Assembly (NCBI GenBank): GCA_021295965.1
Contig: JAGWBI010000003.1
Location: forward strand, 4,719 to 68,718
DNA length: 64,000 bases
DNA from: Dehalococcoidia bacterium
Lineage (GTDB): Bacteria > Chloroflexota > Dehalococcoidia > Lucifugimonadales > UBA3495
Reading direction: 5' to 3'
Both the position numbers and the translations under genes were made by a program. How positions within the stretch are numbered: the first letter of the stretch is position 1; every line of letters begins with the position of its first letter. Below are positions 3,472-41,901 of the stretch, one piece after another. The notes under the pieces were generated by a model that saw only the letters and a program-made list of their open reading frames with translations, was not told the origin of the DNA and searched no databases.

Positions 3472-4284
3472 ATGGCGACCCAACCTGCTACCACCACCGA
3501 CCGCATCGCCGCCAAGTTCGCGTCCATCAAGTCTGAGGGCCGGCCCGGCCTGGTAGTTTTCGTAACCGTGGGTCACCCATACCGGGAAGCCGCCCTGGAG
3601 GTCGTGCCCCGGCTGGTGGCCGCCGGCGCCGACGCCATCGAGCTGGGCGTCCCCTTCAGCGATCCCATCGGGGAGGGGCCGGTTATCCAGCAATCTAGTT
3701 ATTTGGCGTTGCAGAACGGGGTAACCCTGCGCGATTGCCTCGATACAGCGGCCAACCTCCGCCCAGAAATCGGCGACACTCCGTTGATTTTGATGGGATA
3801 CTACAACACCTTCCTGACCTATGGTTTGGAGCGTTTCGCCGCCGATTGCGCCGCCGCTACCGTTGACGGCCTCATCATCGTTGATCTTCCCAGCTCGGAG
3901 GCCCATGCCCTGGTCGCCCAACTCGCCCCCTATGGCGTCCACCTGGTACCTTTGTTGGCCCCGACCAGCACGGATGAGAGCATCGCGAACTCTGTGAACA
4001 TCGGCGGAGGGTTCGTTTATTGCACCAGCGTGACCGGCATCACCGGGGCGCGCTCCGAGGTATCCGAACGCGGCCTGGATCTAGTGGACCGAGTGCGCCA
4101 GCATACCGATCTGCCCTTGGCAATCGGCTTCGGCATTTCCCGCCGGGAGCACGTTCTCGAGGTGGGCAAGCGCGCCGATGCCGCCGTGGTCGGAAGCGCC
4201 CTCGTCCGCGCCCTGGGCGACGGCTCCGATGACGGCGCGGCAGAACGCGGCGCCCAGGTGGTGGCCGAACTGGCGGGTCGGTGA
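3472..4284 (+). CDS. trpA: Tryptophan synthase alpha chain
   Basis: A 270-residue TIM-barrel protein that cleaves indole-3-glycerol phosphate to indole and glyceraldehyde 3-phosphate. The start at ATG 3472 gives the usual family length; upstream in-frame codons extend into the CPBP gene. The signature region ELGVPFSDPIGEGPVIQ is clear, with catalytic Glu49 (E. coli numbering) kept; the position of Asp60 is Glu here. Later barrel motifs include LMGYYNTFLTYG, VDLPSSEA and the phosphate-binding GFGISRREHV and AVVGSALV. No trpB or other trp gene is in the window, so the partner is elsewhere. It lies just upstream of the attenuator-controlled DAHP synthase, so two aromatic pathway genes are neighbours. 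Confidence 0.95.
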   Translation: MATQPATTTDRIAAKFASIKSEGRPGLVVFVTVGHPYREAALEVVPRLVAAGADAIELGVPFSDPIGEGPVIQQSSYLALQNGVTLRDCLDTAANLRPEIGDTPLILMGYYNTFLTYGLERFAADCAAATVDGLIIVDLPSSEAHALVAQLAPYGVHLVPLLAPTSTDESIANSVNIGGGFVYCTSVTGITGARSEVSERGLDLVDRVRQHTDLPLAIGFGISRREHVLEVGKRADAAVVGSALVRALGDGSDDGAAERGAQVVAELAGR

Positions 4285-4349: not shown

Positions 4350-4378
4350 TTGACAATGCCCGCCGGTGGGTTTACGAT
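4350..4378 (+). promoter_or_regulatory. Sigma-70-type promoter of the DAHP synthase leader
   Basis: TTGACA at 4350-4355, a 17-base spacer and TACGAT at 4373-4378 form a near-consensus promoter in the gap after trpA. The predicted transcription start (4384-4388) falls on or just before the ATG of the leader peptide at 4388, so the transcript would be leaderless or almost so. Confidence 0.75.
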
Positions 4379-4387
4379 TTCTGTGCA

Positions 4388-4492
4388 ATGAGTACAGCCT
4401 GCCGCCAAATCGCATACGGTTATTACCGCCCCTTCTGGTTTTACGCTTACCGCCGCCCGGTAGGCGAGCATCCGGCGTGGGAAACCCGTTAA
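4388..4492 (+). CDS. Aromatic amino acid leader peptide (attenuator)
   Basis: A 34-codon reading frame between the promoter and an intrinsic terminator ahead of the DAHP synthase gene. Residues 10-21 read YGYYRPFWFYAY: eight of twelve are Tyr, Phe or Trp, with a further Trp at residue 31. This is the classic signature of a leader peptide whose translation senses charged aromatic tRNAs, as with pheL and trpL in enterobacteria. There is no Shine-Dalgarno sequence; the -10 box ends nine bases before the ATG, suggesting leaderless translation. A segment just past the aromatic codons (4468-4476) can pair with 4524-4532 in the terminator top and loop (8 of 9 pairs), giving a candidate antiterminator that a stalled ribosome would leave free and a terminating ribosome would cover. 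Confidence 0.8.
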   Translation: MSTACRQIAYGYYRPFWFYAYRRPVGEHPAWETR

Positions 4493-4514
4493 ACTTGGTT
4501 ACAACCACTTTGGC

Positions 4515-4552
4515 AGGACTTCAGCCGGACGCAGGCTGAAGTCCTTTTCGTT
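4515..4552 (+). terminator. Attenuator terminator upstream of DAHP synthase
   Basis: A perfect 12-bp stem (AGGACTTCAGCC at 4515-4526 with its complement at 4534-4545) encloses a 7-base loop and runs into TTTTCGTT. It lies 22 bases after the leader peptide stop and 63 bases before the DAHP synthase start, so it can only serve to stop transcription before that gene. Confidence 0.85.
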
Positions 4553-4614
4553 GGAATACAGCCTCAACTCACCGGCGCCAGCGGCGAACCCTTCAACAAC
4601 GGAGGATGAAAAAG

Positions 4615-5664
4615 ATGGCAATCTCACCGGCAAAAGATGTGAACGTAACGAGCAACAACGCCCTGATCCGACCGTCGGAACTGGAGGAGAGTATCCCCCT
4701 CAGCTCCACGGCTGAAGCCACCGTCCTCGAAGGGCGGCGACAGCTGGAAGCCGTCCTCAACGGTGAGGATGAGCGCTTTGCGGTCATCGTGGGCCCCTGC
4801 TCCATACACGATCAGTCCGCCGCTCTGGACTACGCCGAGCGGCTCAAGCCCCTTGCCGACCGGCTCAGCGACCGGATCATGGTCGTCATGCGGGTTTATT
4901 TCGAGAAGCCCCGCACTACTGTCGGCTGGAAGGGCCTCATTTACGACCCCAATCTGAACGACACCTACCAGATTGAAGACGGCCTGCATCGCGCCCGCAA
5001 ACTCCTGATGGATCTCTCCGAAGCCGGCCTGTATTCCGCCACCGAGTTCCTGGACCCCATCGTACCGCAGTACGTGGCGGATCTGGTTACCTGGGCTGCC
5101 ATCGGAGCCCGCACTACGGAGAGCCAGATCCACCGCCAGATGGCGTCCGGCCTGTCCATGCCCGTTGGCTTTAAGAACGGCACCGACGGGGATCCCCAGA
5201 CCGCGGTGGATGCCCTCGTCGCGGCCGGCACCCCGCAGGCCTTCCTCGGCATTGACCATGACGGCCAGGCTTCCATCGTCGAAACTCGCGGCAACCGCAA
5301 CTGCCACTTGGTGATGCGCGGCGGGCGGAGCGGCACCAACTTCGACTCCCGCTCCATCTCTGCCGCCGCCGAAGCCCTGCGCAAGGCTGACGCTCCGGCT
5401 CCAATCGTGGTCGATTGCAGCCACGGCAACTCCAACAAAGACCACACTCGCCAACACATCGCCTTCCGCGACGTCCTGGGGCAGCGCCTGGAGGGGAACC
5501 CGGACCTGATCGGTGTGATGCTGGAGAGCAATATCAACGCCGGCGCGCAGAAGCTCGGGCCGAATCCCGCTGAACTGGAGTATGGAGTCTCCATCACCGA
5601 CTCCTGCATCAGTTGGGAGGAAACGGTGGAGCTTCTGGATTGGGCCTACGACCGGTTGGGCTAA
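4615..5664 (+). CDS. 3-deoxy-7-phosphoheptulonate (DAHP) synthase, class I
   Basis: First enzyme of the shikimate pathway: condenses phosphoenolpyruvate and erythrose 4-phosphate. The 349-residue protein matches class I AroF/G/H enzymes: GPCSIHD near residue 60, KPRTTVGWKGLIYDP near 103, GFKNGTDGD near 185, the metal ligand His in VDCSHGNSNKDH near 268, and a late ESNINAG segment. GGAGG at 4601-4605 is nine bases from ATG 4615 but touches the alternative ATG at 4606, so I choose 4615. AroF, AroG and AroH cannot be told apart by eye. Expression is probably controlled by the aromatic leader peptide and terminator just upstream. Confidence 0.95.
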   Translation: MAISPAKDVNVTSNNALIRPSELEESIPLSSTAEATVLEGRRQLEAVLNGEDERFAVIVGPCSIHDQSAALDYAERLKPLADRLSDRIMVVMRVYFEKPRTTVGWKGLIYDPNLNDTYQIEDGLHRARKLLMDLSEAGLYSATEFLDPIVPQYVADLVTWAAIGARTTESQIHRQMASGLSMPVGFKNGTDGDPQTAVDALVAAGTPQAFLGIDHDGQASIVETRGNRNCHLVMRGGRSGTNFDSRSISAAAEALRKADAPAPIVVDCSHGNSNKDHTRQHIAFRDVLGQRLEGNPDLIGVMLESNINAGAQKLGPNPAELEYGVSITDSCISWEETVELLDWAYDRLG

Positions 5665-5717: not shown

Positions 5718-5755
5718 GGTCGGGGCGGGTTAGAAACCCGTCCCGACCTATTTTT
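5718..5755 (+). terminator. Intrinsic terminator after DAHP synthase
   Basis: A 14-bp stem with one G-T pair (GGTCGGGGCGGGTT at 5718-5731 with AACCCGTCCCGACC at 5735-5748) is followed by TATTTTT. The GGGGCGGGTT core resembles the family B palindromes at 37427 and 50547, so a dispersed repeat may have been recruited as a terminator. Confidence 0.8.
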
Positions 5756-41804: not shown

Positions 41805-41901
41805 TGGCGGGAGTGCGAGGGAGTCGAACCCACCTACCCCGCTCGTCACAAGGCATAACGGATTTGAAGTCCGCAGGGGCCACCGGGCCCCATCCACCCC
41901 C
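41805..41901 (-). tRNA. selC: tRNA-Sec (UCA), selenocysteine
   Basis: On the minus strand a roughly 97-base tRNA with a long variable arm ends in CTCCCGCCA (discriminator G, encoded CCA). The anticodon loop segment GGACTTCAAATCC gives anticodon UCA, identical to that of E. coli selC; the GGTTCGACTCC T arm is also shared. The D arm carries the extended stem seen in Sec tRNAs (GGGGCC..GGCCCC). The acceptor pairs with one G-T and a mismatch at the eighth position, so the exact 5' end may be 41901 or 41903. It implies the cell inserts selenocysteine at UGA. Confidence 0.88.

Follow-up and report, generated by a model that had tools for sequence, protein, structure and literature searches.

The gene for DAHP synthase in this Dehalococcoidia bacterium is preceded by what is very probably a classical ribosome-mediated attenuator, which would sense charged tRNA-Tyr and tRNA-Phe and control the only DAHP synthase found. 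Its support comes from conservation within the genus, recurrence in further families, co-variation of the antiterminator and ribosome-masking folds, and on these grounds the attenuation that the first-pass annotation had proposed for this gene is upheld. The window, that is, the whole stretch of DNA analysed, is 64,000 nucleotides long, and the features of the locus are the following (window positions):

about 3472-4284, + strand: trpA, directly 5' of the leader region and in the same direction
4350-4378, + strand: sigma-70-type promoter TTGACA-N17-TACGAT with 10/12 consensus matches (-35 box TTGACA at 4350-4355, -10 box TACGAT at 4373-4378, spacer of 17 nt)
4388-4492, + strand: leader-peptide ORF of 34 codons, peptide MSTACRQIAYGYYRPFWFYAYRRPVGEHPAWETR
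4418-4453, + strand: conserved core, codons 11-22, GYYRPFWFYAYR, with the putative regulatory Tyr/Phe codons
4444-4466, + strand: conserved 1:2-like hairpin, CGC-T-TACCG / CGGTA-G-GCG in this species
4468-4486, + strand: region 2, the antiterminator strand (CCGGC plus a downstream GAA.CC segment)
4490, + strand: stop codon of the leader, immediately preceded by region 2
4515-4532, + strand: region 3, made up of the terminator's 5' arm and its loop, with which region 2 can pair alternatively
4515-4549, + strand: intrinsic terminator (regions 3:4) with a short T-tract
4601-4605, + strand: Shine-Dalgarno GGAGG of the DAHP synthase gene, kept in relatives
4615-5664, + strand: aroF/G/H-type (type I-alpha) DAHP synthase gene, alternative start 4606
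5718-5748, + strand: second terminator, 3' of the DAHP synthase gene

Promoter, 34-codon leader and 12-bp terminator had been described in the first pass as lying in this order before the gene, and all three were located so. The downstream gene is an aroFGH-type DAHP synthase (TIGR00034, E 4e-140) and the sole one detected in the assembly (PF00793 one match, PF01474 zero), a statement that has to be read together with an estimated assembly completeness of 87%. ATG 4615 is its more likely start rather than ATG 4606, because GGAGG abuts the latter and the relatives begin with MAIS or MATS. Given the terminator at 5718-5748, the DAHP synthase transcript looks monocistronic. Elsewhere in the window, at 41805-41901 on the - strand, both ARAGORN and Rfam found a selenocysteine tRNA gene and therefore the genome probably makes selenoproteins.

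The sequence-level hallmarks of leader-peptide attenuators are all present, namely an ORF rich in end-product codons, an intrinsic terminator and an alternative antiterminator. In the proposed mechanism, transcription would begin at the leader AUG or within a few bases of it and ribosomes would load at the 5' end without a Shine-Dalgarno sequence. With Tyr- or Phe-tRNA in short supply, the ribosome would stall in codons 12-21 and leave region 2 (4468-4486) free, which could pair with 4515-4532 once this is transcribed, so that the polymerase would enter the gene. When both tRNAs are plentiful, the ribosome would reach the stop at 4490 and cover region 2, the terminator would fold and transcription would end.

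Regarding the leader peptide, eight Tyr/Phe/Trp among 12 residues were found in YGYYRPFWFYAY, just as noticed in the first pass, and the best 10-residue stretch holds seven aromatics. Among 1150 control segments, each 440 nt long and drawn from either strand of the window, none had six or more aromatics in 10 residues, and short ORFs with five in ten appeared in only 3. The promoter, leader, core and terminator are kept in 12 of the 12 same-genus genomes with an orthologue, the window included, in the same order and with similar spacing; gTTGACAA is invariant and the 17-nt spacing is kept in all of them. In the 12-genome alignment codons 11-22 read GYYRPF[YW][FL]YAYR (also given as GYYRPF[YW]FYAYR) and are conserved at the amino-acid level with synonymous changes: Gly11 is encoded by GGT, GGG and GGC, Pro15 by CCC, CCG and CCA, Phe16 by TTC and TTT, and Tyr13 by TAC and TAT, with Cys in two members. 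Most of codons 2-10 and 23-28 are variable. This synonymous pattern may bear indirectly on the translation of the leader. A thirteenth member of the genus (G008) has only a divergent copy of the gene, 51% identical, and there no comparable aromatic leader with terminator was seen.

The non-aromatic residues Gly11, Arg14, Pro15, Ala20 and Arg22 are also invariant in the genus core, Gly11 and Pro15 despite the use of three synonymous codons for either of them, which is what would be expected if a specific nascent peptide arrested the ribosome, as TnaC or SecM do, and not only the slow translation of Tyr and Phe codons. Nevertheless, codons 20-22 double as the 5' arm of the hairpin 4444-4466, which can account for their invariance, and other families keep the aromatic richness only (for example FGYYYYFTG and YTYYYF), so we consider such an arrest very unlikely. 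That the nascent GYYRPFYFYAYR itself arrests the ribosome within the genus, so that tRNA charging would be read jointly with a leaderless arrest peptide, is likewise improbable in our judgement, if a little less so. As for the hairpin, it covers the 3' end of the aromatic codon run and might possibly act as a pause hairpin for RNA polymerase.

Starting from 147 relatives, we examined the region 5' of the gene at 88 DAHP synthase loci of the order. To count as positive, a locus had to show at least five aromatics within ten residues together with a terminator ahead of the gene; L129 was included because of its visible hairpin and T-run. At least 46 of the 88 loci have an aromatic leader with terminator, and they belong to 10 families and 23 genera, with typical cores such as FGYYRYFTGLSAAGEGLV, SYGYYYYFTG and YFTYYYYF. 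Thus the aromatic run, for which the first-pass annotation had suggested an alignment of related genomes, is conserved throughout the 12 genus genomes and recurs in further families. In about half of the order's loci no leader passes the filter. Three loci counted as negative (L115, L147 and L153) do carry aromatic runs, though shorter ones, and may be positives that the filter missed. In Chloroflexota beyond the class of the window, L188 and L190, both of one family, have a GYFWFSYF or GFFYFWFSYF leader and a terminator before DAHP synthase, and these are the two clear aromatic leaders among the loci read from other members of the phylum. In Desulfobacterota, L062 and L075 carry the aromatic leaders YHFYYYYYYRGSPGVR and SYYSYWTGPPGVR with strong terminators and antiterminators before DAHP synthase genes.

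This distribution also bears on whether the stem-loop is merely the 3' terminator of trpA and the aromatic ORF a product of chance. As trpA lies directly 5' and in the same direction, some terminator is expected there. However, a promoter stands between trpA and the leader, the aromatic core is conserved at the amino-acid level, and 27 of the 46 positive loci keep leader and terminator without an adjoining trpA. The conservation data thus contradict the trpA-terminator explanation, which we reject as extremely improbable.

The leader RNA is conserved within the genus at the nucleotide level too (87% mean column identity), as would be the case if a protein regulator or a riboswitch bound it and the ORF were dispensable. 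Against this, the families share the aromatic ORF, the close promoter spacing and the pairing of regions 2 and 3, and no relevant Rfam family was matched: searches with the leader and with 14 relatives gave nothing relevant, whether at the gathering threshold or at permissive ones, the Rfam Trp, His, Leu and Thr leader models stayed below the family threshold at the aro leader, and the T-box covariance model gave no match there. We therefore regard this explanation as highly improbable, and ribosome-mediated attenuation remains the preferred one.

The terminator stem (4515-4526/4534-4545) has 12 bp and -22.7 kcal/mol (z -4.7), and none of 200 shuffles was as stable. It is the 12-bp terminator with T-tract reported before, although the tract is short, TTTT and then C, where most relatives have five T. 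As for the alternative pairing of 4468-4476 with 4524-4532, it does exist with 8 of 9 pairs, the mismatch being A.C at 4470/4530, but it is not limited to the top of the terminator stem as originally described, since a second helix forms on the lower arm. When the RNA 4460-4533, the part that lies free while the ribosome is stalled and the terminator's 3' arm is still to be transcribed, is folded alone, it forms the helix 4468-4476/4524-4532, extended down the terminator arm by 4478-4481 with 4520-4523 and then 4485-4486 with 4517-4518, with -24.7 kcal/mol in total.

Within the genus, CCGGC....GAAG.CC pairs with GG.CTTC.GCCGG in 98.5% of the cells, against 10-46% when the strands are slid. Region 3 is GGACTTCAGCCGG in 11 of the 12 members and differs by one base in the twelfth (AGACTTCAGCCGG), and the window itself loses one antiterminator pair by having GAAACCC where GAAGCCC is expected. 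The pairing is almost invariant and no covariation was found among these 12 genomes. Across families, the native duplexes of regions 2 and 3 sum to -744.7 kcal/mol and the permuted ones to -556.6 +/- 19.1 (sd), and 0 of 10000 permutations reached the native sum, which, as the kinship of some sequences touches both the native and the permuted sums, has to be read as strong and not as an exact probability. Hence the covariation of the alternative stems, also suggested as a check in the first pass, is given by the families while the near-invariant genus is uninformative, and the sequences offer strong indications that regions 2 and 3 co-vary across families. Compared with dinucleotide shuffles of region 2, the duplex reached p <= 0.05 at 33 of 50 loci. 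In this species alone it is no better than the shuffles (p 0.41, and 0.15 in the ribosome-masking test), so the support for the antiterminator comes from the relatives.

In the ribosome-masking folds the edge of the modelled ribosome was set 12 nt beyond the first base of the A-site codon. With the ribosome stalled at the final aromatic codon, 73% of the 5' arm of the terminator was paired upstream on average (73% also in this species), while with the ribosome at the stop codon the arm was 19% paired to upstream RNA (35% in this species); without a ribosome the average was 56%. Shuffling region 2 with the ribosome stalled made the pairing drop to 45%. In the model, therefore, the stalled ribosome is predicted to give read-through and the finished one termination, the direction being that of classical attenuation and the same as anticipated in the first-pass annotation.

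Which amino acids would be sensed is the point where our results depart from that annotation, according to which all three end products are sensed. Codon 17 is Trp in this species only and Tyr in the other 11 members of the genus. Taking one leader per genus for the 23 genera of the order, Tyr:Phe:Trp is 89:67:13; Tyr and Phe occur in the leaders of all 23 genera, and Trp occurs in 10 and is absent from 13. Judging from this private Trp17 and these counts, the conserved residues predicted to be sensed are Tyr and Phe, Trp is not among them, and the sensing of all three is unsupported. Furthermore, in the same genome a T-box leader lies ahead of trpE (L211:1147-1356, trpE at C30:5915; RF00230, 63.6 bits, E 1.1e-13, with the gathering score of 93 not reached), and in our own reading of the alignment its specifier position is UGG, for Trp. 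Before pheA no leader was seen and a gene for a TrkA-like protein precedes it. The trpE T-box and the pheA gene without leader suggest that DAHP synthase responds to Tyr/Phe and that the sensing of Trp takes place at trpE. The trpE match falls under the Rfam gathering score, and divergent Chloroflexota T-boxes may accordingly be under-annotated.

The first-pass annotation missed a further feature. The start codon of the leader, at 4388, is 9 nt past the -10 box and has no Shine-Dalgarno sequence, and among the 45 leaders that have a good promoter, 38 likewise begin 6-10 nt past this box. With transcription starting about 7 nt past the -10 box, this spacing suggests that the leader mRNA is probably leaderless, with its AUG at or a few bases from the 5' end. 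Among the remaining seven, an in-frame ATG exists farther upstream in five (L010, L027, L117, L118 and L168), at a similar distance for most of them, and the true exceptions are L122 and L129 (26 nt). Shine-Dalgarno-like strings are rare: four leaders have at least four matching bases, and in three of these (L002, L003 and L005) the AGGA belongs to the -10 box TAGGAT. The spacing looks to be kept across many families.

The same arrangement was looked for elsewhere in the genome. A promoter directly followed by an ATG was found 13 times, against 0 in the reversed control, and a looser promoter pattern gave 54 matches against 17 in the control; among about 20 further loci inspected there was no further convincing leader. 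At one of the 13 sites (L179, C54:23800) a promoter and a Cys-rich leader MQSNCKTNCVCSCSCPPKSGAG are followed by the terminator CCCACCG..CGGTGGGTTTTTG and by a gene for nitrite/sulfite reductase; this is probably a leaderless cysteine attenuator. Another of the 13 (L177, C41:119642, - strand) has a short leaderless-looking ORF MLSIQLPRDLCACPST before a MoeB/MoeZ-like adenylyltransferase gene, and perhaps this ORF is also Cys-responsive.

Among known systems, the enterobacterial trpL and pheL leaders are alike in their regulatory codons, alternative antiterminator and terminator, and intrinsic terminator with T-tract; they have Shine-Dalgarno starts, unlike the leader described here. By gene and amino acid the closest case is aroR-aroF of C. 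glutamicum (Neshat et al. 2014, as described in PMC11802643 and PMC4046766). There too an aromatic leader, with Phe-Tyr-Phe, precedes the DAHP synthase gene, and ribosome stalling at the aromatic codons raises transcription (PMC11802643, PMC4046766) and Phe limitation alone mattered, Tyr availability did not (PMC11802643). However, it belongs to another phylum and its aromatic run is much shorter than the 7-8 Tyr/Phe codons here. Leaderless trpL, leuL and ilvL leader peptides are described in Streptomyces lividans (PMC8079986), and leaderless Cys leaders in mycobacteria (Canestrari et al. 2020, cited in PMC13236596). These actinobacterial leaders likewise have a leader ORF on a leaderless transcript before an amino acid gene, but for other amino acids and in another phylum, and the leaderless start in our case is deduced from spacing.

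The mechanism is thus a known one, and its leaderless twist has precedents elsewhere. A 2010 survey knew leader peptides from Proteobacteria and Actinobacteria only, to which it added Firmicutes (PMC2965389). No earlier description of leader-peptide attenuation in Chloroflexota appeared in the literature searched, to which subscription papers mostly did not belong, in agreement with the first-pass remark that no case was known, and an earlier prediction is possible. As far as searched, therefore, Chloroflexota is a new phylum for leader-peptide attenuation, which is extended here beyond the Proteobacteria, Actinobacteria and some Firmicutes where it has mainly been described (PMC2965389). At least one further candidate was flagged in the same genome, the Cys-rich leader before the sulfite/nitrite reductase gene. 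For these bacteria, the results suggest a division of labour in which the flux through the whole aromatic pathway would be set by Tyr/Phe charging and trpE by its T-box.
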